Origin: Oscillospiraceae bacterium
Lineage (GTDB): Bacteria > Bacillota > Clostridia > Oscillospirales > Oscillospiraceae
DNA length: 49,142 nucleotides
NCBI GenBank assembly: GCA_017938625.1
Contig: JAGBBD010000024.1
Coordinates: forward strand, 1 to 49,142
Direction: 5' to 3'
Shown: one piece after another, positions 27,640-48,562 of the stretch
How positions within the stretch are numbered: position 1 is the stretch's first letter
Layout: each line of letters opens with the position of its first letter
Program-made: the position numbers and the translations under genes
The notes under the pieces: generated by a model
Database searches by the model: none
Told to the model about the DNA's origin: nothing
What the model saw: only the letters and a program-made list of their open reading frames with translations

Positions 27640-30600
27640 TTACTGTCTGCTCAGCAGATATGCCTTTGCAGAAGTGGCGAACTTCATGATGGCATTGTAC
27701 AAAGGAGCAGCTGCGGTGGCGGAGCCACGGTTTGCGTAGCTTTCCACGGAGTCGGAGCCGTAGGCAATGGGCGCCTCGATGCCATCTTCATACAGTTCCA
27801 CCGTTACAAGGCACTTGGCATCTGCCAGAACGATATCATCGACCTTCACCTTATAGCGGTCACCTGTCGCACCATAGAGTTCAAACTCTGTTCCGGGGAT
27901 CTCCACTTCCACATACTCGTCCTTCCAGTTGGTGAAGGAGACCTTTGCTGTGATAGTGCTCATGTCCTTACCCTTGAGTCCCTGGAAATAGACATTGAGC
28001 AGAATGCAGTCATCCAGAGCAAGATTGGAACCAATGTTATTTGTGCCCTTGATCTGGTTATTGGCACACACCACAGTTCCGGTTGCCAGAGCCTTCTGAG
28101 CGTCGGTCAGCTGGTTGTTGGCAAGGTCATCTGCCTTATATCCAAAGTTGGTCTGCGCAGCCGCACCGTAGTTTACCATGTCAACCACCAGAGTCTTCAT
28201 CTGGCTCGTAGAAGAGGCTGCCGCAAGAGCCTTTCCTGCATAGTCGCGGACAGAAGTTGTGTACTCCTCACTCCAGAAGTTCCCATCTGCATCCTTGATG
28301 GTGATGGTCAGTGCGTCTGTCATCTCCATGGCTCTGACGCGGACAGAAATTCTTGTGCGGGTCGCATCAAAGACAGACCACTGCTCCATGGGAATCTCAT
28401 GGGTCACACCTGCTTCCTCTTCTGTCTGCTGGTGAATATACGCTGTGTATACGCCACCTTCCGGCAGATTGGGAACGATAAAGTTGACCTGCAATTCATT
28501 GCCCAAGTTCATGTTGGAGCCTGCAACGGTCACTTTTTCGATCTGAGAGATCTTGCCGCCGCACTTATCGCAGTTGGTATCTGCATCAGAGCCGTCCTTA
28601 CAGGCAGCAATGCTCTCGCTTGTGACCACACCACAATTGGTGCAGGTTCTTGTCACAGTGTGCGTTCCGTCTCCGTTTCCCGTATAGGAAACTCTGTTTC
28701 GCTTATGGAAGCAGCTTACTTCTGCACTCAAAGGAATACTGAAAGTCTGACCCTCCGCAATATTATGGATAAAGCCCTTGCTCGGATCGGTACCGTCAAT
28801 GTAGCTGCGAGTCAGAGTCTGCTTGTTCAAATCCAGAACTGCTGTGTCGCCATTGACTTGTGCGCCGTAGATCTGATACGCACCATTTTGCGCGCCGTCA
28901 TTGTCGACATAGATATACTTGCCTGCCAGGTCTTCTGCAGTAACAGGGGTTTCCATGGAGATCGTCATGGAATAGGTGTCGGCAAGACCCTTCGTGAAAT
29001 CGATCACTTCGCCTTCCACACGCTGCAAGCCATCCATGACCAAAGAGACCCCGTCAGCATTGGTCATGGTGCGCACTTCGCTGCCATAAGCATAGGTGAT
29101 CTCTCCGTTTTCAACAGAGCAAACACCTGTAAATCCGCAGAATTGCAGGAACTCCTGACCGTCATCCAAAATGGAATACGTCACATCAGGATTGGTTGCA
29201 TAGATGATATAGTCCGTACGCCCTGAGGTCAGCGTCACTTTCATAGCTGCCGCTCTGTCTGTCACCGCTTCCTTTCCGGAAACAACTTCCACATCCAGGA
29301 GCTGCGTGCTTTCAATGTAAGGAACGTCTCTGTAGGGCTGGATAACAGAGGTGAAGAGTGTATCCATCCCCTTCTTTCCGCTGCGGCGGACAAGAAGATA
29401 CTTCAAAATTTCTGGGTTTCTGCCGTTCTGAGTGGGGTGACCGTCCGCAACAGCAACCTCCGTCATAGGCTCCTCGGACACCATAGTCAGACGCATACGG
29501 ACACCTTCACTGTTTATGACCACATCCCGGAAGTCCTCGATCTCAAAGTCCACACTGAATGTATTCTCCGGTTCATCATCACGATAGACATTATCCAGCC
29601 AGCTGTAACCGCTACCGGTATTGGCTGCGGCGTCGGTGGAATAAGGATTGGAATACCAATTGCCAAACGCAACTTCGGGGCCTGCATAAGTTCCCATGGC
29701 CTGATGCACAAAGGACAGTCCCTCGGTTTCAGGCTCAATGGTAGATGCCGCATGGAAGCTATAGACGTGCTCACTGCCGCCAAGGACACGGAAGAAGTCT
29801 ACAGCGTAGTACACATTCTCCTGCGCCTGCACACTCACCAGCGTACGGCGGTAGATATCCGCTTCGTCATATGCATTGGGTGCAGATGCATCTGCGATCT
29901 TCACCTCTCCCACATCTTCAAAATGCAGAGGGAAGCTGTTCTTGGAAATGGCGTGCTGGCATTTGTCGTCCACAACAACAGTATTATGGCTGACTGTATT
30001 GCGCATCCACTGCATACGTTCAGGATCCTGTGCATTGACCACCTTGGGGTAACCAAGAGTGGGAGACGAAATAATGCCAAACGCTTCAATGCCAATGGTC
30101 AAAGCTTCATGGGCACCATGGGTACCGCCACACATTCCGAAGAACATCCAATAATCGGAGAACTGATCATCGTTGACGCCCTTCTGGAAAACCTCAGGAC
30201 CATTCCGCAGAATGGCAAGACCATGACCGCAAAGCATCTCACTGCGATTCCAGATCCACTCACCATCTTCTTCCACGATCTTCAAGATTGCAGACCGAAT
30301 ACCGGCTTCCGGATCTTTGGTAAAGATGGATGCATGCAAACCACTGACAGAGTTTTTATTTGCAAAATACAGGCCCCTTGACAGTTCTCTGTCGCCGGAG
30401 TTGATAAATGCTTCCAGCATATAGCTCGGCTGCGCGGATGTGCCGTAGCTCTGTACATTACCGGACTCGCCGGTATTGACAGAAGCAGTACCGCAAAGAA
30501 TGATTTTGTTATAGGGATTGAACATGGAAACGAACTTGGGGTTCTTCCACAGATCCACACCTTCAACTCTTGTATAACCATTGAGCGCATCGGCAACAGA

Positions 30601-33600
30601 CATCAGATTCTGATACCACATGGGGTTATACATCATGCTGCCTTCATTGCCAAAGCCGTCACGATCTACATCGTTGACAAGACGATCCAGTACGCTGCCG
30701 CCTGTTACATAGAGTTCTCTGGCACTAAGGGTTTTGTTTTCACCGGCCCGGAAGATCCAGTCGATCATTTCTTTCGTTTCGGGAAGACGATCCAGCGCCA
30801 CAGCGGCATATGCCATGGATGCCTGATGCATGCCAAAGTTTCCAAGATTTTTGGCACTCAGACAGGCATCTCTGATTTGAAGCAAAATACCCTCATCCAC
30901 ATTGTTGCGGATATATTCCGGGGTGATCTGTTCTGCGCTCACACCCTTCCATGCAGCATGCGCACGCAGATACGCGATCACATCAGCATTATCCATAGCA
31001 GGCCAGAACGCATCTGCAGCCTTTGCCAGCGTCTGACCGATGGAAGAAGCTTCCCAAATAGCATTGACGATCTTACCCTTGTCGAAACCATCATAAGTAT
31101 AGTAGTCGTACTCGGGATAAATGTCTGCAATTCGGTCAAGCAGGATGGCACCGGCAGAGCCGTACTTTTCATCACCTGTGTACAGATACGCATCCTGCAG
31201 GGCGGTAATGGCGCCGAGCATGTCGTTCTTTGCTGTAGAACTCAGAGAATCAAACACGCAGTGCATATAGTAGCCGATGTATGTATGGATCTCTTTTGCA
31301 CCGTTGCTGTAGGTATTGCCGGTATCGTAACCAAAACCGTCATCTACGCCCCAGCCTGCCCCCATTTCCGGATACAGCTCATTAACAAGATATTGTGAGT
31401 CTGCATTCTCCGGATAGAAGCGCCCATCCTCACCAAGGCCGGATTTGTAGTAACTTTCAAAATCGTTTGACGGGAAGTCACGCTTACAGGCAGGACAGGT
31501 AATTTTCCACGGGTTGGTCAAAGGATCCACGATCCAGGGATAGACACCATAAGTGGCTGCCAGATCCTTACCGCAATAACGGCAGTAATATGCCTCCGGA
31601 TCCGTTCTTGTGCCGACACGGGTGGATCTGGGGAATGCCTGATAAATGAAATTATCGTAATAAGTATCAAGATAAGTAAGAACCTTATCTGCATTCCTGA
31701 CAGCTGTTGTTTTGAGATTAGCTGCCCAGGAATACTTGGAAACGTTTTCGATCGCATTGGCTCGCTCTTCATATGTAAAGAGCGTCGGCTCAGTCTTGCC
31801 GGTCGTCACCGTGATCCAAATCGATGCAGACATGGTTCTGCCGTTTTCCGTTACCGTTGCCGTGATTTCTGCTGAGCCTTCTTTCCCTGTGACAGTCACC
31901 TTTCCGGCAGAAGATACTTTGGCAACAGATGTATCGCCGCTGGAATAGGAAACACTTGCACCAGAAGGCAGAGAGATCTGTGTCCCGTCAGCTTTATATG
32001 CCAGCAGGCTCAAGGAAGTTCCGGAGGATGTGGGTGCCAGAGTAGTCTTTCCTGCTGTCAGTTCAACAGAATAGACACTGCCGTTCATAACGGAAACAGA
32101 CAACGTTTTCTTGATTGCCTTGTTGCCGATCTCGCCATTGAGCGTGATCACCGCTGTGCCCTTTGCAACTGCAGTCAGCGTATTGCCGCTGACAGATACC
32201 ACCTTGGCATTGCTGCTGGAAAGGCTGTAATAGTTGGTATAGTCCGGTGTGGCAGAAGAAGATACGCACTTGAGAGTATATGTTCCCTTTTCATTGGCAG
32301 TCTTGATCTTCACTTCCGGCACAAGGCTCTCGCCGATCAAAAGCTGGTTTTTGGCATTGAAGGTGATCTCCATCTCGTTGGGATCACTCGTCGCACGGCA
32401 AATGAACTTACCCAGGGAGAACGTGCCGCGCGTGGTGCATTCATAGACACAGGTATGGACACCTGCCTCCAGATAAATGGTGTTCATGATGGAATTACCG
32501 CTGTAGGTCAGGTTTTTGCCCTGGTTGAAATCCATAACACCAACATATACATCATCGACGAAAACATCAGCAATACCGCCGTAAGTAAACAAGGTACCCC
32601 ATGTTTCGATCACATACCAGCCATCTTTCTCAATGGTAAAATCGATCGCCAGCTTATCGCCCAGTTTCGGAGAACTGAGCAAGATACCGTGTTTTGTCGT
32701 ATAGCTCAAGGTCGATCCGCCGGAAACCGTCAGATCACGGTTGATCTGCATACCATCTTCCTCAAGAGTTGCTGTTTCCATTGCAACACAACGTCCGTCG
32801 GTCAGATCCAGGATCATGTCGCCCGCTTTCAGTTCGGTATTATCCACAACAGTCACAAGCATGGTATCCGTGATCGCCGTTCGAGCAACGCCCGCGGTAG
32901 CAGTCACTGTAACAGTACCAGGTTTCAAACCTACAAGACGGCCATTCTCATCAATGCAGGCAACAGACTCGTCATCGATTGTATAAGAAACCGGGAAATT
33001 ATCCATGTCGGCTTTTGCGCCGGACGCTTTCTTGCCTGTCGCAGACAGCTGCAGCGTGTTGCCTGTACCAACATAATCTGCTGAGGTGTCAATTGTAATC
33101 GAGGCAAGATCGGTATCATCTGTGACCACAATGTCAACATAATCTTTCAGAAGGACGCCGTCCACCTGCACATAAACGTGGATTCTGGCAGAACCTTCAC
33201 CCACACAGGTAACACTACCGTCTGTCTGATCAACTTTGGCTACGGAAGTGTTATCAGACATAAAGTAGATGTCACCTGCACGGCGGACGACATCGATATC
33301 GTATTCTTTGCTCAGATTAGAAATACCGGTCAAGGTGCCGACACCGACCTGTCCATACTTCAAAGCTTCTGCCTCAAAGCCATCAACTAAATAAGATACA
33401 CGAGTCAGATCCTCAATTGCGCTCATGCTCTCAACAACCGTTACCGGGAAGGTCACGACTTCCGTACCGTTTTTATAAAGCGTGATGTTCGTCCTTCCCT
33501 CTTTCACGCCGGTAATGATCAGCTTGCCGGTACCGTCGATTTTGGGCTTAGCAATGGCAGTATTCTCGCTGGTCACAGTATGCGTACCGGAAGACAAAAC

Positions 33601-34440
33601 CGCATCAAAAGGGAGATAGTTCTGCGTCAGATCCACTTCATTGTCGTGAGCAGTTTCAATATAAACATCACCAAGCGGAGAAAACTCAACGCTGCGAAGA
33701 TTTATCAGTCTTCTGCTGCTGCTTTGACCGCCGGCAAAATCTTTCACGCTGGCGATCATCAGAGTATTTTCTCCACTGTTCAGATACACGGCACCAAGTC
33801 CGTTGGTGATCGTTTTCGTCTCACTGCCAAAATAGTAGTCCTGATAGATCCGCTCACCGTTGATATAAATATCACCATAGCCACTACCGTAATATACACC
33901 TGTCGTGGCAGTGGTATTATACGCACCGGTGGTAGATTCATGGAACGCCTGAAGATCCATATGATACCAACCGGCTGTTTCGACCTCAAAGACGATCTGC
34001 AGCTTATTACGCTCACTTAAACTCAGATACGTGGGGTAATGGGAGATGCCCCAAGGGATATCCTTCGCGCAGTTGATATAAAGCTGCTTCATGAAATACG
34101 TATTGGAGAAACGGCAGGCACTCTCATCGATCCACCAACCAAACCGCTCTTTTGTAAAAGTGCGCATTTGCTCATAAGCGGCAGTTACCTCGCTGCTCAT
34201 TTCCACACCATATGACTTGCAGCCAATATACATGGTATTGCTATCGGCAGCAGGCTGCAGATCTGCCCACCAATCCTGCTCGGATGCCGCTATGGCAAAC
34301 TCCTTAAAATCAAGCTTCACAGAAGCACTTTCGCTTGAAGCTGCTGAAACTACAGCGCTGTCGCTCATAGAGCATGAGAGCACACACAGCACCGTCAACA
34401 GCACAGGCAGCAGTACTTTTTTGATCATACCTTTCAGCAT
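27640..34440 (-). CDS. Giant secreted heparinase II/III-like polysaccharide lyase
   Basis: A 2266-residue exported protein with a signal peptide (about 1-34). Modules in order: a jelly-roll carbohydrate-binding-like domain (about 40-255), Ig-like/Big_2 repeats (about 258-540), a second jelly-roll (about 545-690) and more Big_2 (about 700-880). An alpha/alpha toroid follows (about 885-1320), with a CRYCG...CPACKRDFPSNDF zinc-like site near 960-990, then a heparinase II/III beta-sandwich (about 1415-1800). Lyase residues fit the family: Asn1201 and His1205 in GNFGMHQ, Tyr1271 in EGSMMYN, His1441/His1444 in GTHGAHEAL, and His1485 in SHNTVVVD. A small Cys-rich module (about 1900-1960) and a C-terminal adhesion-like module end the protein. 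It should cleave uronic-acid polysaccharides outside the cell. No LPxTG. No transporter or sulfatase is adjacent. Confidence 0.88.
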   Translation of the reverse strand: MLKGMIKKVLLPVLLTVLCVLSCSMSDSAVVSAASSESASVKLDFKEFAIAASEQDWWADLQPAADSNTMYIGCKSYGVEMSSEVTAAYEQMRTFTKERFGWWIDESACRFSNTYFMKQLYINCAKDIPWGISHYPTYLSLSERNKLQIVFEVETAGWYHMDLQAFHESTTGAYNTTATTGVYYGSGYGDIYINGERIYQDYYFGSETKTITNGLGAVYLNSGENTLMIASVKDFAGGQSSSRRLINLRSVEFSPLGDVYIETAHDNEVDLTQNYLPFDAVLSSGTHTVTSENTAIAKPKIDGTGKLIITGVKEGRTNITLYKNGTEVVTFPVTVVESMSAIEDLTRVSYLVDGFEAEALKYGQVGVGTLTGISNLSKEYDIDVVRRAGDIYFMSDNTSVAKVDQTDGSVTCVGEGSARIHVYVQVDGVLLKDYVDIVVTDDTDLASITIDTSADYVGTGNTLQLSATGKKASGAKADMDNFPVSYTIDDESVACIDENGRLVGLKPGTVTVTATAGVARTAITDTMLVTVVDNTELKAGDMILDLTDGRCVAMETATLEEDGMQINRDLTVSGGSTLSYTTKHGILLSSPKLGDKLAIDFTIEKDGWYVIETWGTLFTYGGIADVFVDDVYVGVMDFNQGKNLTYSGNSIMNTIYLEAGVHTCVYECTTRGTFSLGKFICRATSDPNEMEITFNAKNQLLIGESLVPEVKIKTANEKGTYTLKCVSSSATPDYTNYYSLSSSNAKVVSVSGNTLTAVAKGTAVITLNGEIGNKAIKKTLSVSVMNGSVYSVELTAGKTTLAPTSSGTSLSLLAYKADGTQISLPSGASVSYSSGDTSVAKVSSAGKVTVTGKEGSAEITATVTENGRTMSASIWITVTTGKTEPTLFTYEERANAIENVSKYSWAANLKTTAVRNADKVLTYLDTYYDNFIYQAFPRSTRVGTRTDPEAYYCRYCGKDLAATYGVYPWIVDPLTNPWKITCPACKRDFPSNDFESYYKSGLGEDGRFYPENADSQYLVNELYPEMGAGWGVDDGFGYDTGNTYSNGAKEIHTYIGYYMHCVFDSLSSTAKNDMLGAITALQDAYLYTGDEKYGSAGAILLDRIADIYPEYDYYTYDGFDKGKIVNAIWEASSIGQTLAKAADAFWPAMDNADVIAYLRAHAAWKGVSAEQITPEYIRNNVDEGILLQIRDACLSAKNLGNFGMHQASMAYAAVALDRLPETKEMIDWIFRAGENKTLSARELYVTGGSVLDRLVNDVDRDGFGNEGSMMYNPMWYQNLMSVADALNGYTRVEGVDLWKNPKFVSMFNPYNKIILCGTASVNTGESGNVQSYGTSAQPSYMLEAFINSGDRELSRGLYFANKNSVSGLHASIFTKDPEAGIRSAILKIVEEDGEWIWNRSEMLCGHGLAILRNGPEVFQKGVNDDQFSDYWMFFGMCGGTHGAHEALTIGIEAFGIISSPTLGYPKVVNAQDPERMQWMRNTVSHNTVVVDDKCQHAISKNSFPLHFEDVGEVKIADASAPNAYDEADIYRRTLVSVQAQENVYYAVDFFRVLGGSEHVYSFHAASTIEPETEGLSFVHQAMGTYAGPEVAFGNWYSNPYSTDAAANTGSGYSWLDNVYRDDEPENTFSVDFEIEDFRDVVINSEGVRMRLTMVSEEPMTEVAVADGHPTQNGRNPEILKYLLVRRSGKKGMDTLFTSVIQPYRDVPYIESTQLLDVEVVSGKEAVTDRAAAMKVTLTSGRTDYIIYATNPDVTYSILDDGQEFLQFCGFTGVCSVENGEITYAYGSEVRTMTNADGVSLVMDGLQRVEGEVIDFTKGLADTYSMTISMETPVTAEDLAGKYIYVDNDGAQNGAYQIYGAQVNGDTAVLDLNKQTLTRSYIDGTDPSKGFIHNIAEGQTFSIPLSAEVSCFHKRNRVSYTGNGDGTHTVTRTCTNCGVVTSESIAACKDGSDADTNCDKCGGKISQIEKVTVAGSNMNLGNELQVNFIVPNLPEGGVYTAYIHQQTEEEAGVTHEIPMEQWSVFDATRTRISVRVRAMEMTDALTITIKDADGNFWSEEYTTSVRDYAGKALAAASSTSQMKTLVVDMVNYGAAAQTNFGYKADDLANNQLTDAQKALATGTVVCANNQIKGTNNIGSNLALDDCILLNVYFQGLKGKDMSTITAKVSFTNWKDEYVEVEIPGTEFELYGATGDRYKVKVDDIVLADAKCLVTVELYEDGIEAPIAYGSDSVESYANRGSATAAAPLYNAIMKFATSAKAYLLSRQ

Positions 34441-34627: not shown

Positions 34628-37600
34628 TTAAAACAAAGTAACCTGACTGGTATCGGGAAGGTCTCCAAACGCACCTGCTGCCCTCAGGTTTTCAATATGG
34701 GTCTTGGACACCTTGGGACAGGCCGCAGAGAATTCCTCAATAGAAATGAAATGCTTGCCTTTTCTGCCTTCCACAATATCCAATGCCGCCGCTTCACCAA
34801 GGCCGGAGACTGATACAAATGGCGGAATAAGCTTGTCTCCCTTTACCAGGAAGCGCAGGGCATCGGATTCGTAAATGTTTATGCGTTCAAAGGAGAACCC
34901 ACGCAGATAGAACTCATAACACAGCTCCAAAGTTGTCAGCAAATCATCTTCCTTATCCGTCTTGTCTGGATTTGCATGCATTTTACGGATTTCTTCTTTG
35001 ACTGTGTCCATGCCTCTTGTCATCATGGCAGCATCAAAGCCATCCTTCTGACTACGGCGATAGAAGTAGGCGGCATAAAACGCAAGAGGTCTGTGAACTT
35101 TAAACCAAGCGATACGGAATGCCATCATAACATACGCAACGGCGTGGGCTTTAGGGAAGAGATACTTGATCTTTTTGCAAGATCCAATATACCAGTCCGG
35201 CACACCCGCTTCGACCATTTCCTCTTCCGCTCCGGGCGGCAGGCCTCTGCCCTTTCGCACACTTTCCATGATCTTGAAGGAGCGCTGTTCCGGCATTCCC
35301 TTGGAGATCAGATAGTTCATAATATCGTCGCGGCAGCCGATGGCCTGTGAAACAGATGCTGTGCCGGAAACGATCAGATCTTTTGCATTGCCAAGCCACA
35401 CGTCCGTACCGTGAGAGAAGCCGGAAAGTCTGACCAGAGTATCAAAACGGTCTGGCATGGTGTCCATCAGCATGCCTCTTGTAAAGCCTGTACCAAATTC
35501 GGGAATACCGCACGAGCCCATGGGGCCCAGAATGGGATCATCCTCAAACCCAAGGACTTTGCTGGATTTGAAGATAGACATGGTGTCCTTGTCGTCGAGA
35601 GGGATCTCTCTGGCATTGACACCGGTCAGATCCTCCAGCATACGGATCATGGTGGGATCATCGTGACCCAGCATATCCAGCTTCAGAAGATTTGCCTCCA
35701 TGGAATGGTATTCAAAATGGGTGGTGATGGTCTCAGAACTGGTATCATCCGCAGGATGCTGCACCGGGCAGAAATCCCAGATCTCATTTTCTCTTGGAAT
35801 GACCACCAGACCGCCGGGATGCTGACCGGTGGTACGCTTGACTTTGACACAGCCTGTGGCAAGGCGATTTTCCTCCGCCTTGCTGACGGTGATATTCCGT
35901 TCGTCAAGATACTTTTTAGCATAGCCGTACGCCGTCTTTTCCGCCACAGTACCGATGGTGCCTGCTCGGAACACCTGACTGGCACCGAACATTTCCACAC
36001 AGTATGCATGGGCCTTTGCCTGATACTCACCGGAGAAGTTCAGGTCAATATCAGGAACCTTGTCACCGCCAAATCCAAGGAATGTCTCAAAAGGAATGGC
36101 AAAGCCTTCTTTTGCAAACTTTTCGCCACATCTGGGGCATACATCATCCGGCAGATCCGCGCCGCAGGCATAGCCTTCAGGTACATCAAAGGTATGATAC
36201 TTGCACGCAGGGCAGCGATAATGAGGCGGGAAAGAGTTAACTTCCGTGATACCGGACAGGTACGCCACAATGGAAGAACCAACCGAGCCTCGGGAGCCAA
36301 CAAGATATCCGTTCTCCAGAGAGTTCTGCACCAGCTTCTGGGCAGACATATAGATCACATCATAGTGACAGGAGATAATATCGTGCATTTCCGTCTCAAC
36401 GCGCTTGACGATCAGAGGATGCGGCTCGTCACCATACAATTCCTTCATCCGTCCGTACACAAGGCGGTTCAGGTCTTCTACCGAGTTTTCAATGGCAGGC
36501 GCAAACAGCTTCAATGGCACAGGTCTGATCTTTTCGCACATATCCGCGATCAGATTGGGATTGGTGATGACCACCTCATGTGCCAGTTCTTCACCAAGGT
36601 AATCAAATTCTGCCAGCATTTCCTCCGTAGTACGGAAGTAGAGCGGATTCTCACGGTCGCAGTCTTTGAACCCCTTGGATGCCAGAAGCATTCTGCGATA
36701 AATCTCGTCCTCGGGATTCTGGAAATGGACGTCACCGGTCGCAACAACCGGCTTGTCCAGCTCTCTTGCAAGACGAATGATCGTGCGGTTGAACTCCTTG
36801 AGTTCTTCATCATCCTTCGCCAGACCGTCTGCCAACATAAAGCGGTTATTCGCCAAGGGCTGAATCTCTAAGAAGTCATAGAAAGAAGCAATTCTCAGCA
36901 GTTCATCATGACTCTTGTGGGCAAGGATCGCCTGGAACAAGTCACTTGCTTCACAGGCAGAACCGACGATCAAACCTTCACGCCACTTTACCAGTTCCGA
37001 CTTTGGAATTCGCGGCACACGCTTGAGATAATTCAGATGCGCATAGGAGATCAGACGATAAAGATTTCGCAGACCGGTCTGATTCTTGGCAAACAAGATC
37101 ATATGGTAAGCATGACGATCCGTAGGCGGAACAGCAGATCTCAGCTGAACGATGGCAGGATCGATCTGCTCCAGCGCAGTCACTCCTCGCTCTTCCAATT
37201 TTGCGAGGAAGTGATGGAACAGATGGCCTACTGTGACGGCGCTGTCTGCTGCGCGCAGGCTTGCCGTTCTGGTCAAGTTCAGCGCGTCCGCCAGAACATT
37301 CAGCTTGTGGCTCTTCATGCCAGGCTGCATTTCCTGTGCCAGCACAAGGGTATCTACATAGACAGGCTGATACTCAATATGCTCCGCCTTACAGGCAGCC
37401 AGCAGGAAACCAATATCCACATCAGCGTCATGGGTGACCAGAGGGCGATCGCCACAGAAGGCCATAAAATCCTGCAGGACAGCACCAATGGTCGGTGCAT
37501 CACGAAGCATATCTTCTGTCAGTCCGAACAGTTCCAGCATCTCAGGACTCAAAGGACAGACAGGCTGCACAAAAGAACTGAACTGCTTTATCATTTCACC

Positions 37601-38893
37601 GCAGCAGTAGATCGCCGCACCAACTTCAAGAATCGTGTCCGTTTCCTTGTTCTGCCCTGTTGTCTGCAGCCAGAACGTCACGAACTCATCGGTCAAAGGC
37701 ATCTCACGCTGACCGTGAACGACCAGACTTTCATCCACATCGTTCACAAAATACGCCTCACAGCCATAGATGATCTTGATGTCCTTTTTGTCGGCAGCCT
37801 TCAGCGCGTCCGGGAATGCCTGTGCCACTCCATGGTCCGTAATGGCAATGGCCTTATGTCCCCATTCGATCGCCTGTGCGACCACCTTTCCCACATCGGT
37901 CAAGGCATCCATGTTGGACATCTTGGTATGCAGATGCAGCTCCACACGCTTTTCAGGCGCATTATCCACGCGTTTCCTTTTCTTGCCTACCATAATGGAT
38001 TGAGGACGCAGGACGTTTTCGTTTTCAAAGCGGTCAAAATTCATGGTGCCTTGAATACGCAGCCAGCCGCCCGGCTTTTTGATCTTATCCAGAACAGGTG
38101 CAGCTTTATCGGCTTCCATGAACATATTGATGCGAACAGAGCCGGTATAGTCCGTAATATCAAAGGAAACGATCCATGCATTGCGTTTTTTCAGTTCCCT
38201 GTGATTGACCGCAAAAACCTCGCCCTCTACGATCACTCTGGAAGTATCCAATGTCACGTCGGACATAGGAATGGAATCTCCGGTAAATGGTCTGCCAAAG
38301 ATCAGCTCCGGGTTTTCCATAGGTGCTGCTGCCTTGCTTTCCTTTTCCTGTCTGAATGTGGGCAGAGGCATATTTTTTACTGCCTCCAGGCGCAGTTTTT
38401 CCGTTTCCTCATACAGAGCCTCGCCTTCCACACTATGTGCATCGATTTCGATCTCAGGGCATATGCCAAAGAGCTTTTTCAGGTGCTCACGCAGGTGCAC
38501 AAGCAGCGGATCCAATTTGTCCTTGCCGTTGGCAACCAGGTGGATGACGATCTTTTCTTCGCTCATATCCCACCGGCTGCCCGCCAGAATCAGACGAACA
38601 GCAGGATCGTAGGGATATAAAATATCAATCAGATCCCGCGGCTCAGCTTGACTGATCACTGAGGCAGGATATGTAATATTCAGTTTCAGATCCACAACAT
38701 CATAGCAGCTTTTGATCCTGCTATGTGCTGTTTTGATATGCTTTCCGGTCAGATACACCGGACTGGACACATCCATCTCGATCTTGCGAGCCTGCGGGTC
38801 GATCTGCACATCACAGATCTCCGCCGTACCCCAAAGGCTTTCCTCCAAATCGCATTGAGAGAACATATCCAAAAAGCGTACTGTATTGTTCAT
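34628..38893 (-). CDS. polC: DNA polymerase III alpha subunit, Gram-positive PolC type, with degenerate exonuclease
   Basis: The 1421-residue replicase. Order: N-terminal domain, OB fold (VIVEGEVFAVN), PHP first part (VELHLHTKMSNMD, AIAITDHG, IIYGCEAYF), inserted DEDDh exonuclease-like domain (about 400-560), PHP second part (GSACEASD, ATGDVHF), zinc knuckle (CPACKYHT...CPRCGEKF), and a palm with PDIDLNFSGEYQ and KLDMLGHDDP. A helix-hairpin-helix C terminus completes it. The polymerase and PHP motifs look intact. The exonuclease does not: the FDVETTG motif reads FWLQTTG (Trp408, Gln410), and the late His is missing. Proofreading by this domain is therefore improbable. The start follows TAGGAG, which overlaps the ispG stop. 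Last gene of the pyrH run. Confidence 0.96.
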   Translation of the reverse strand: MNNTVRFLDMFSQCDLEESLWGTAEICDVQIDPQARKIEMDVSSPVYLTGKHIKTAHSRIKSCYDVVDLKLNITYPASVISQAEPRDLIDILYPYDPAVRLILAGSRWDMSEEKIVIHLVANGKDKLDPLLVHLREHLKKLFGICPEIEIDAHSVEGEALYEETEKLRLEAVKNMPLPTFRQEKESKAAAPMENPELIFGRPFTGDSIPMSDVTLDTSRVIVEGEVFAVNHRELKKRNAWIVSFDITDYTGSVRINMFMEADKAAPVLDKIKKPGGWLRIQGTMNFDRFENENVLRPQSIMVGKKRKRVDNAPEKRVELHLHTKMSNMDALTDVGKVVAQAIEWGHKAIAITDHGVAQAFPDALKAADKKDIKIIYGCEAYFVNDVDESLVVHGQREMPLTDEFVTFWLQTTGQNKETDTILEVGAAIYCCGEMIKQFSSFVQPVCPLSPEMLELFGLTEDMLRDAPTIGAVLQDFMAFCGDRPLVTHDADVDIGFLLAACKAEHIEYQPVYVDTLVLAQEMQPGMKSHKLNVLADALNLTRTASLRAADSAVTVGHLFHHFLAKLEERGVTALEQIDPAIVQLRSAVPPTDRHAYHMILFAKNQTGLRNLYRLISYAHLNYLKRVPRIPKSELVKWREGLIVGSACEASDLFQAILAHKSHDELLRIASFYDFLEIQPLANNRFMLADGLAKDDEELKEFNRTIIRLARELDKPVVATGDVHFQNPEDEIYRRMLLASKGFKDCDRENPLYFRTTEEMLAEFDYLGEELAHEVVITNPNLIADMCEKIRPVPLKLFAPAIENSVEDLNRLVYGRMKELYGDEPHPLIVKRVETEMHDIISCHYDVIYMSAQKLVQNSLENGYLVGSRGSVGSSIVAYLSGITEVNSFPPHYRCPACKYHTFDVPEGYACGADLPDDVCPRCGEKFAKEGFAIPFETFLGFGGDKVPDIDLNFSGEYQAKAHAYCVEMFGASQVFRAGTIGTVAEKTAYGYAKKYLDERNITVSKAEENRLATGCVKVKRTTGQHPGGLVVIPRENEIWDFCPVQHPADDTSSETITTHFEYHSMEANLLKLDMLGHDDPTMIRMLEDLTGVNAREIPLDDKDTMSIFKSSKVLGFEDDPILGPMGSCGIPEFGTGFTRGMLMDTMPDRFDTLVRLSGFSHGTDVWLGNAKDLIVSGTASVSQAIGCRDDIMNYLISKGMPEQRSFKIMESVRKGRGLPPGAEEEMVEAGVPDWYIGSCKKIKYLFPKAHAVAYVMMAFRIAWFKVHRPLAFYAAYFYRRSQKDGFDAAMMTRGMDTVKEEIRKMHANPDKTDKEDDLLTTLELCYEFYLRGFSFERINIYESDALRFLVKGDKLIPPFVSVSGLGEAAALDIVEGRKGKHFISIEEFSAACPKVSKTHIENLRAAGAFGDLPDTSQVTLF

Positions 38894-47045: not shown

Positions 47046-48485
47046 TTACTCAGCGTATTTTCCCAAAGCGCCGCCAGCTGCGTTGCCAAGAATCTCAATA
47101 CCCTTAGCGCTGTAGTGACCTGCCACATAGGGGTTCATATACTCAGGCTCTTTGTTAAGCTCTTCCGCGATCTTTGTGAGCATGATAAAATCAGGATTTT
47201 CGTCACACAGTTCTTCCTGTGCCTGCATGATCTGCAGATCCCGCTCATCATTGGTAAAGCGCCCAACCCTGATCACAGCAAAACGCTCAGCGCCAAAGTC
47301 TTTCATGCAGGACTGTGCCAGCTGTGCCAGTTTCTGCTTATAGGTATCTTTTGATGTGCCGCTGATGGCATCACTTTCACCCTGCAGCCAGACCACATAA
47401 ATGTGTCCAATGGTGTGCTCGCGCTTCGCCTTCTTGATGGCTGCATTGGCTTTCTGTACCAAAGTGCTGTAGATCTCCGCACCCGGCGCCCACTGATCGA
47501 TCACGCTGCTGCCCTTAGCGGTATGGACAGCGAGAACGCTGGTTTCTCTCTGATCGATATAGGCTCTGCAGAAAGAAGGTACCAGATTTGTGTTGCCATA
47601 GCAGGATGCGCCAAAGACATGATCCTTAAGCCAGGCAGGGATCTGATCTCCACTCTCCAGTGCCCATCCCTCGCTGCCGTCAAACTTGATATTTTCACCC
47701 ACGGGGTTGCGCAAAGGCACGATTTTATTGGTCAGCCACTTATACTCATAGGCATCCTTGACCGTTTCTGCCTCGGACAGGCGCTCGGTCTCGCCCTGCA
47801 TATTACTCTGCCCTGCAAAGATGATCACATCCATGGTATTGGCAGGCTTGCTGCGGACGATGCACTCACAGCGGTTGATGGGCGTCCCCAGATTATAGAA
47901 CTTTTCTTCGTAGCCGGTCATAATGCCAACAGGCCCGTTCTCATGCAGATTTCTTGTCACGTTGCGCATTTCCAGATCGCAGCGCGCGAACTCTTCCAGA
48001 GAAAACTCAAACAGCTTTGCATTGTCCGTCTTGAAGTGTATCTGTCCACCCAGCTTCAGCACACGGCGGTATTTATCAAGGAAGGTGTGATATGTCAGAC
48101 GACGCTTGGCATTTTTGCTTCTGGGCCAGGGGTCGCAGAAGTTGATGTACAGAAGATCCAGTTCGCTCTCTTCAAAGAAGTTTTCGATCTCCGCCACGTC
48201 CATGGAAATGAAGAACACATTTTTAAGGCCCATCGCCTTTGCCTTTTCCATGCCCACGACCATGGCATCCTTGACGATCTCTACTGCGATCAAAAGCATA
48301 TCCGGCTCTGCGGCAGCAGTTTCCACTGTGAATTTTCCTTTTCCACAGCCTACTTCCACACGCAGCTGGCTGCAGTCGGGCTTCAGTTCGCGCCATCGAC
48401 CTTTGTAAGTCTCAGGATTCTGAATCCAGTATTCACTGCAGGCATCCATTCTGGACTGCAGATTGTTTTTCTTTCGCATTCTCAT
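47046..48485 (-). CDS. trmB: Fusion: tRNA (guanine-N7-)-methyltransferase TrmB plus SASA/DUF303 acetylesterase-like domain
   Basis: A single 479-residue frame. Residues 1-212 are a complete TrmB, which makes m7G46 in the tRNA variable loop: SAM motif VEVGCGKGKF, INFCDPWPRSKNAKRRL, GGQIHFKTDN and the C-terminal TGYEEKFYNLGTPINRCE. Residues 218-479 are a SASA (sialate O-acetylesterase, DUF303, CE6-like) SGNH hydrolase: FAGQSNMQGE with Ser227, AKGSSVIDQW, WLQGESD (366-372) and GHYSAKG with His457. The Asp expected three residues before that His is Val454. No ribosome binding site precedes the internal ATG (47834), and no stop separates the halves. There is no signal peptide, so both domains are cytoplasmic. 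The start follows GGGGGAAAG. TrmB alone is normally about 215 residues. Confidence 0.88.
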   Translation of the reverse strand: MRMRKKNNLQSRMDACSEYWIQNPETYKGRWRELKPDCSQLRVEVGCGKGKFTVETAAAEPDMLLIAVEIVKDAMVVGMEKAKAMGLKNVFFISMDVAEIENFFEESELDLLYINFCDPWPRSKNAKRRLTYHTFLDKYRRVLKLGGQIHFKTDNAKLFEFSLEEFARCDLEMRNVTRNLHENGPVGIMTGYEEKFYNLGTPINRCECIVRSKPANTMDVIIFAGQSNMQGETERLSEAETVKDAYEYKWLTNKIVPLRNPVGENIKFDGSEGWALESGDQIPAWLKDHVFGASCYGNTNLVPSFCRAYIDQRETSVLAVHTAKGSSVIDQWAPGAEIYSTLVQKANAAIKKAKREHTIGHIYVVWLQGESDAISGTSKDTYKQKLAQLAQSCMKDFGAERFAVIRVGRFTNDERDLQIMQAQEELCDENPDFIMLTKIAEELNKEPEYMNPYVAGHYSAKGIEILGNAAGGALGKYAE

Positions 48486-48562
48486 GGGTCTTTCCCCCGT
48501 CTTTGTAATTTGGTGCATTGATTATATCAAAAAACATTCCCTTGGTAAAGCGTTTTTCTGAC

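Follow-up and report, generated by a model that had tools for sequence, protein, structure and literature searches.

A PolC-type replicase with an intact PHP site and a retained exonuclease domain lacking most of its catalytic residues in a member of the Oscillospiraceae

The polC locus

The window analyzed here is a stretch of 49,142 nt, positions 1-49,142 of contig JAGBBD010000024.1 in the Oscillospiraceae bacterium assembly GCA_017938625.1. It encodes a DNA polymerase III alpha subunit of the PolC type (Table 1), which scores 1465.7 bits against TIGR01405 (cut-off 1043.45) and 1593.7 bits against NF001688 (cut-off 873). The Pfam domains follow the order of the PolC type, namely OB, PHP with the inserted exonuclease, Pol3, fingers and HhH, with the OB match (19.7 vs 27 bits) and an N-terminal NI match (13.4 vs 22) falling below threshold. 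Since approximately 174 residues of the exonuclease domain are present, the protein is not of the exo-less type.

Table 1. Features of the polC locus, in window coordinates.
Feature	Position	Strand	Basis
polC (DNA polymerase III alpha subunit, PolC type)	34628..38893	-	ORF of 1421 aa, 0 internal stops
DEDDh-type 3'-5' exonuclease domain, ~residues 402-575	37169..37690	-	PF00929, 67.5 bits (cut-off 24)
Exonuclease motif I, W408 and Q410	37664..37672	-	Alignment with 86 relatives
Exonuclease motif II, D489 and D493	37415..37429	-	Alignment with 86 relatives
Exonuclease motif III, L546 and S551	37241..37258	-	Alignment with 86 relatives
PHP domain, split by the exonuclease insertion	36725..37936	-	Nine metal-ligand positions, motif blocks
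Polymerase core and C-terminal part	34631..36493	-	PDIDLNFSG and GFSHGTDVW intact

Loss of the catalytic residues

At the five positions where an active DEDDh exonuclease carries D, E, D, H and D, the window PolC has W, Q, D, L and S. Four of the five catalytic residues are thus gone (D408W, E410Q, H546L and D551S in the alignment with 86 relatives), leaving D493 as the only one. The initial annotation had reported the sequence FWLQTTG at residues 407-413, with both motif I acids replaced, a retained Asp in VDIGFL and a missing His in motif III, all of which the translation and the alignment bear out. Its count of three losses, however, has to be raised to four: the last Asp was taken to remain because D550 of SLRAADSA was counted, whereas the spacing of HxAxxD puts the catalytic position at 551, a Ser whose codon (37241-37243) lies just outside the interval 37250..37700 considered at the time. 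Among the relatives, motif I has both acids in 85 of 86 and motif III has His and Asp in 84, with all five residues found in 84; the exceptions are L091, a partial sequence which has the motif I acids and ends before motif III, and L086, a PolC from a genome of the same genus (G002), which reads K, V, D, R and S and is dead as well. The two dead sequences are 74% identical, and share Ser551 as well as an acid in place of the conserved Asn at 489 (Asp in the window PolC, Glu in L086).

Two readings would deny that catalysis has been lost. The chance that an assembly or sequencing artefact is responsible is negligible: the source genome is fragmented and incomplete (70.98% complete, 68 contigs), but the frame runs at full length and without stops, also through the dead domain, and an assembly error is contradicted by L086, altered at the same four positions in a second genome. 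That the domain still cuts through a shifted metal site, formed by the acid at 489 and D493, is very improbable. The acid replaces the conserved Asn in both dead sequences, as this reading would have it, but nothing is left of the motif I acid pair, the His or the final Asp. In the solved PolC structure 9qpc, motif I reads FAVATTG; its two Ala residues stand precisely where the acids would be, and the protein is presumably an exonuclease-minus form made by engineering.

Among the sequences sampled, the loss appears limited to one genus, in which two genomes show it. The 224 distinct exonuclease sequences of relatives comprise 219 intact, 2 dead and 3 partial ones that are intact where readable, giving 2 dead among 221 fully readable. 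In the class-wide sample, from which the window's own row is left out, 67 of 68 are intact and one is unreadable (dead: 0/67 readable). A loss common to the whole family or class was rejected, being unseen in these sequences. PolC without the exonuclease domain occurs in ten of the sampled same-family genomes (seven g9 genomes, G228, G323 and G355).

Fold and evolutionary rate of the dead domain

An AlphaFold2 model of residues 312-800 has a mean pLDDT of 86.3, and Foldseek aligns the modelled domain to E. coli epsilon and S. thermophilus DnaQ with TM scores of 0.82-0.86 (by target length). Together with the PF00929 profile match this assigns the domain to the DnaQ-like (RNase_T) fold, which is predicted to survive the catalytic loss. 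Loss of DEDDh catalysis in a domain that was retained and not deleted, as first proposed, is well supported by the sequence and the predicted fold.

The dead domain evolves several times as fast as the remainder of PolC. The dead tips have ratios of exonuclease to non-exonuclease branch length of 11.5 and 5.5, four intact congeners have 1.7-2.3, and the ratio of exonuclease to polymerase dN is about 6 in the dead pair (0.417/0.070), against 2.0-3.4 in five intact pairs. The non-exonuclease part of PolC is itself about twofold faster in the dead clade, which fits a relaxation of PolC as a whole and speaks against the explanation we favor below. Exonuclease dN/dS in the dead pair (0.147) is not above that of two distant intact pairs (0.199, 0.284); it was left out of the evidence because dS is near-saturated in the dead pair, whose dN/dS the distant intact pairs equal or exceed. 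The shared Ser551 and acid at 489 may reflect one late loss on the stem, or there may have been two separate losses; since the exonuclease stem branch shows no acceleration (ratio 2.3), these cannot be told apart.

The 84 intact PolCs have 46 conserved columns in the exonuclease domain. The two dead sequences have both lost the same 9 of them, and all 9 lie among the 22 columns of three active-site motifs (p = 4.5e-4), in a test made post hoc, after the catalytic losses had been noticed, and using three out of four stretches shown as motifs. Counting the fourth stretch (512-519) as a motif gives p = 1.9e-3, and with the four catalytic columns excluded all five remaining losses fall within the 18 motif columns out of 42 (p = 0.010).

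PHP site and polymerase core

The window PolC has all nine PHP metal ligands (H320, H322, D329, H354, E379, H597, C647, D721, H723), conforming to the set HHDHEH[C/H]DH given in section 14 of PMC12926913, and L086 keeps the same nine. In the window PolC, conserved PHP columns are retained at 37/39 and 82/85, and the polymerase part keeps 353 of 360 highly conserved columns. The exo-less PolCs available at full length likewise have the nine ligands (8/8). The G. kaustophilus PolC, with one PHP ligand changed, is described in PMC5636811 as being without PHP exonuclease activity, and the portions of the literature covered contained no PolC with demonstrated PHP exonuclease activity.

Other exonucleases, repair and neighboring genes

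The window's genome (G000) encodes L081, a standalone DnaQ-like protein of 178 aa with the DEDDh residues, and both dead genomes have three PF00929 proteins, a number equal to that in five other congeners. The two dead assemblies (71% and 80% complete) yielded no additional DEDDh exonuclease, and the gain of a new one alongside the loss was rejected within that scope. PF00929 proteins of L081-like size, matched by size, occur in G001-G004, G006 and G007 and were not found in G005; as one also occurs in congeners whose PolC exonuclease is intact, the protein did not arrive along with the loss. Freestanding PF00929 proteins are found in six of eight exo-less genomes (sequences inspected for G305, G181, G389 and G228).

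MutS1 is present in all eight genomes of the genus, so that loss of MutS was rejected; MutS branch lengths, calculated without an outgroup, were excluded from the rate evidence. Six proteins encoded near polC show no raised rate in the dead lineage, with distances from genus node to tip of 0.189 (G000) and 0.218 (G002) vs 0.214-0.238 in three intact congeners.

Discussion

We suggest that PolC of this lineage retains its DEDDh domain as a pseudo-exonuclease and that proofreading is carried out by the PHP site of the same chain, a reading to which we give a probability of about 0.6. The transfer to this site, with its nine intact ligands, would be the most likely outcome. The ancestor would have had redundant proofreaders, the PHP and DEDDh sites of PolC and the PHP site of DnaE, and because of this redundancy the DEDDh site of PolC could have become dispensable and been lost. 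Removal of mismatched primer ends would then fall to the PHP site, by analogy with mycobacterial DnaE1. The dead domain may have been kept since it is embedded in the PHP domain and could still have a structural or strand-guiding part; alternatively, the loss may be too recent for deletion. More tentatively, this could represent a natural reversal, in which the DEDDh proofreader became a pseudoenzyme serving as a structural or strand-guiding module and the older PHP site regained proofreading.

The initial annotation had offered two consequences, proofreading supplied elsewhere or a raised mutation rate, and the former fits better, as the six neighboring genes are not faster and MutS1 is present. 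Proofreading in trans by a separate DnaQ-like exonuclease is nevertheless unlikely: L081 and the freestanding proteins of the exo-less relatives would be candidates, but such a protein is also found in congeners that have kept the PolC exonuclease intact, inspection by eye shows no clamp-binding motif at the end of L081, and two of the eight exo-less relatives (G015 and G364) have no PF00929 match. Somewhat less probable again is a lineage with little replicative proofreading, relying on mismatch repair and polymerase selectivity at the price of a raised mutation rate. The loss of four catalytic residues and the twofold faster evolution of PolC outside the exonuclease domain would agree with it, as would the GC content around PolC, 49.8% and 54.1% in the dead genomes vs 56.6-62.3% in G001, G003, G006 and G007, a weak sign given that G106, of another genus and with an intact exonuclease (L121), is at 46.3%; the neighboring genes, MutS1 and the intact PHP site argue against it. 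There is only a slight chance that bulk replication has passed to DnaE1, with PolC no longer the main replicase. In G002 a 1149-aa DnaE carries the nine PHP ligands, but the window PolC still has its polymerase core, and the search for DnaE in the window's own assembly gave no match; as the adjacent whiA likewise failed to turn up there, the segment is probably missing and a loss of DnaE is not concluded.

The lineage makes two questions testable: whether the PHP site of a PolC can proofread unaided, and what service the exonuclease domain renders the polymerase besides cutting. Congeners with an intact domain are ready controls, and same-family exo-less PolCs with an intact PHP site offer a third state for comparison.

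With the typical clostridial PolC (TIGR01405; PMC3919608) the window PolC shares domain order, nine-ligand PHP site and polymerase core, and differs in that its inserted DEDDh site has lost the catalytic residues. Exo-less PolCs, reported as 6% of PolCs and nearly all from Clostridia and Negativicutes (Timinskas, 2013; PMC3919608), resemble it in having no working internal DEDDh site and in keeping the PHP ligands; in these the domain is absent, whereas here it has its whole length and is predicted to fold normally, and the active site alone is lost. Mycobacterial DnaE1, for which proofreading by the PHP domain has been measured (PMC5636811), likewise has a PHP site with nine ligands within the replicase chain, but is of the DnaE type without a DEDDh insertion, and the corresponding role in the window PolC is suggested by sequence. 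A DnaQ-like domain retained in inactive form within a DNA polymerase is also described for Pol I orthologs and PolA2 (PMC12926913), which, unlike PolC, are not Pol III alpha subunits. In Pol III alpha subunits, according to the statement of a 2026 survey, it is PHP and not DnaQ that is inactivated, and the lineage of the window PolC is an exception to it.

Loss of Catalytic Residues in the PolC Exonuclease Domain

The polC reading frame of the window (see table) contains zero stops, and a search of the assembly (genome G000; 2.25 Mb, 68 contigs, completeness 70.98%) found one PolC. The gene opens the order polC, ispG, rseP, dxr, cdsA, uppS, frr and then pyrH, names which we take from the look of the sequences, except for pyrH, which was named by an NCBIfam search.

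Coordinates of polC and of two further proteins in the window
Feature	Position	Strand	Description
polC	34628-38893	minus	1421-aa ORF, scores as PolC
2266-aa protein	27640-34440	minus	looks secreted and partly Ig-like (by eye); no NCBIfam match
490-aa protein	47046-48518	minus	residues 12-218 match TrmB; remainder without NCBIfam match

Alignment of 87 PolC sequences (the window and 86 relatives) places W408, Q410, D493, L546 and S551 at the five DEDDh positions. This bears out the initial annotation in that both motif I acids are replaced, by Trp408 and Gln410, and that the motif III His is gone, with L546 at the aligned position. The annotation had further held that the Asp of VDIGFL and the last Asp remain; the former is kept as D493, the latter is lost, because HxAxxD puts the Asp five residues past the His, so that the catalytic position is 551, now Ser, and D550 is merely its neighbor. 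A second PolC from the same genus (L086, genome G002; 74% identity) reads K, V, D, R and S at these positions. The first two positions are D and E in all other 85 relatives, and the remaining D, H and D are present in 84 of them, L091 being truncated before them; the window and L086 are the dead pair beside 84 relatives keeping all five residues.

The loss is rare. Across 251 rows (the best 80 of 229 named loci, genus loci, three further loci and family loci), corresponding to 224 distinct exonuclease regions including the window, 219 are intact, two are dead (window, L086) and three are partial (L091, L149, L294) and intact where readable, as are two partial sequences outside this count (L159, L168). 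The family survey found a PolC match in 386 of 400 genomes; the exonuclease regions examined were those of the 30 top-ranking matches, of 80 selected by E-value out of 94 low-scoring matches, and of 50 from the range between. A class-wide sample gave matches in 143 of 147 genomes, the window's included; 67 of 68 exonuclease sequences (from 28 of 30 listed loci and 40 of 81 further full-length rows, with the window's row and one sequence from the earlier count excluded) are intact, and one is unreadable at motif III.

Divergence and Predicted Fold of the Exonuclease Domain

On a fixed PolC topology, the ratio of exonuclease to non-exonuclease branch length reaches 11.5 (0.748/0.065) on one dead tip and 5.5 (0.587/0.107) on the other; the stem shared by the two has 2.3, and four intact congeners have 1.8, 1.7, 2.1 and 2.3. 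Exonuclease dN relative to polymerase dN is likewise about 6.0 in the dead pair vs. 2.0-3.4 in five intact pairs. Of 46 exonuclease columns, each at least 97% conserved across the 84 PolCs with an intact domain, 31 are kept in the window and 30 in L086, so about one third are altered in each, a caveat to scaffold retention; in a leave-one-out control, intact sequences kept a minimum of 83% and a median of 100%. All nine columns lost in both dead sequences fall within motifs I-III (22 of the 46 columns; p = 4.5e-4), as do all five shared losses left once the four catalytic columns are removed (18 of 42 columns; p = 0.010). The losses therefore cluster at the active site, with much of the scaffold kept.

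AlphaFold2 modeling of residues 312-800 (51 relatives in the alignment) gave a mean pLDDT of 86.3 and a pTM of 0.78, values to be read with the caveat that intact relatives in the input may bias toward the intact fold. Foldseek matched the model to the full PolC 9qpc (E 2.8e-48) and to the DnaQ domains 8h2f, 2ido and 1j53 (TM by target length 0.86, 0.83-0.84 and 0.82). The exonuclease fold is thus predicted to be retained.

Candidate Proofreaders

A retained pseudo-exonuclease would probably leave proofreading to the PHP site of the same chain. All nine PHP ligands are present (H320, H322, D329, H354, E379, H597, C647, D721, H723), fitting the HHDHEH[C/H]DH rule of a 2026 survey (PMC12926913), which also credits Clostridia mostly with three proofreaders, active as judged by motif. 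According to PMC5636811, mutation of Asp23 or Asp226 inactivates the PHP exonuclease of mycobacterial DnaE1, and G. kaustophilus PolC, with one PHP ligand changed, shows no PHP exonuclease activity. The window PolC reads GDVH where the solved PolC 9qpc reads GNVH. Several points count against the pseudo-exonuclease reading: PolC outside the exonuclease domain evolved about twofold faster in the dead clade (0.175, 0.217 vs. 0.079-0.122), the G000 and G002 assemblies are incomplete, and G002 carries a second C-family polymerase-like match, described below.

The initial annotation had considered proofreading supplied elsewhere, or a raised mutation rate. Three proteins matching PF00929, the DnaQ-like exonuclease profile, occur in each of G000, G002 and the congeners G001, G003, G004, G006 and G007, namely PolC and open frames of 178-263 and 321-372 aa; G005 shows a single one. 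The DnaE of G002 likewise has nine PHP ligands; searches of the G000 assembly (71% complete) turned up neither dnaE nor whiA, its neighbor in G002, most likely owing to a gap. As for mutation rate, an alignment of six neighbor proteins from six genomes (1641 columns, with G106 as outgroup; the set omits G007, whose contig is short, and G004 and G005, whose PolC is truncated or unfound) gave genus-node-to-tip distances of 0.189 (G000) and 0.218 (G002), and of 0.238, 0.214 and 0.236 in the intact G001, G003 and G006. There is no sign of sustained general acceleration in the dead lineage, while a moderate or recent rise is compatible with these distances.

Two side observations concern these genomes. 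GC near PolC (L246, L241, L240, L242-L245) is 49.8% in the window's genome and 54.1% in G002; four congeners with an intact exonuclease lie at 56.6-62.3%, and G106 lies at 46.3%. G002 also carries a second C-family polymerase-like match (G002:C8:19428-20423; L101, L113) with one internal TGA, about 31-33% identical to the PolC palm and later parts.

Exonuclease-Less Relatives and Known Systems

PolCs lacking the domain altogether, already described in 2013 (PMC3919608), occur within the window's family in seven of nine sampled genomes of genus g9 (G015, G181, G269, G305, G336, G364, G389; open frames of 1162-1194 aa), the other two being intact, and in G228 of genus g5 (1242 aa). The full set of nine PHP ligands is retained in all eight. 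Two more exonuclease-less PolCs, with PHP ligands present where covered, are those of G323 (g78), whose match contains one stop, and G355 (g81), where the gene is divided between two contigs. The loci of these ten genomes are L151-L158, L161, L167 and L176. Genome searches gave no PF00929 match in G015 (98% complete) and G364 (92%), and freestanding PF00929 proteins in the other six of the eight, so that PHP-only as well as trans proofreading is possible in this group. Four freestanding DEDDh sequences were examined (L179 in G305, L182 in G181, L178 in G389, L186 in G228; open frames of 183-211 aa); the G305 protein shares 45% identity with the exonuclease domain of a PolC and looks like a domain transferred out of the polymerase. 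In the class sample, PolC-like frames of 1238-1323 aa from seven genomes (G404, G437, G486, G508, G483, G489, G530), whose match ends about where the exonuclease insertion would start, are probably further exonuclease-less PolCs.

No published PolC whose exonuclease domain is kept yet inactivated was found among open-access titles and abstract openings and parts of PMC3919608, PMC12926913, PMC3656037 and PMC5636811. The window PolC, with its dead exonuclease and kept PHP ligands, shows the opposite of the pattern stated in PMC12926913, where it is PHP, not DnaQ, that is inactivated in Pol III alpha subunits.
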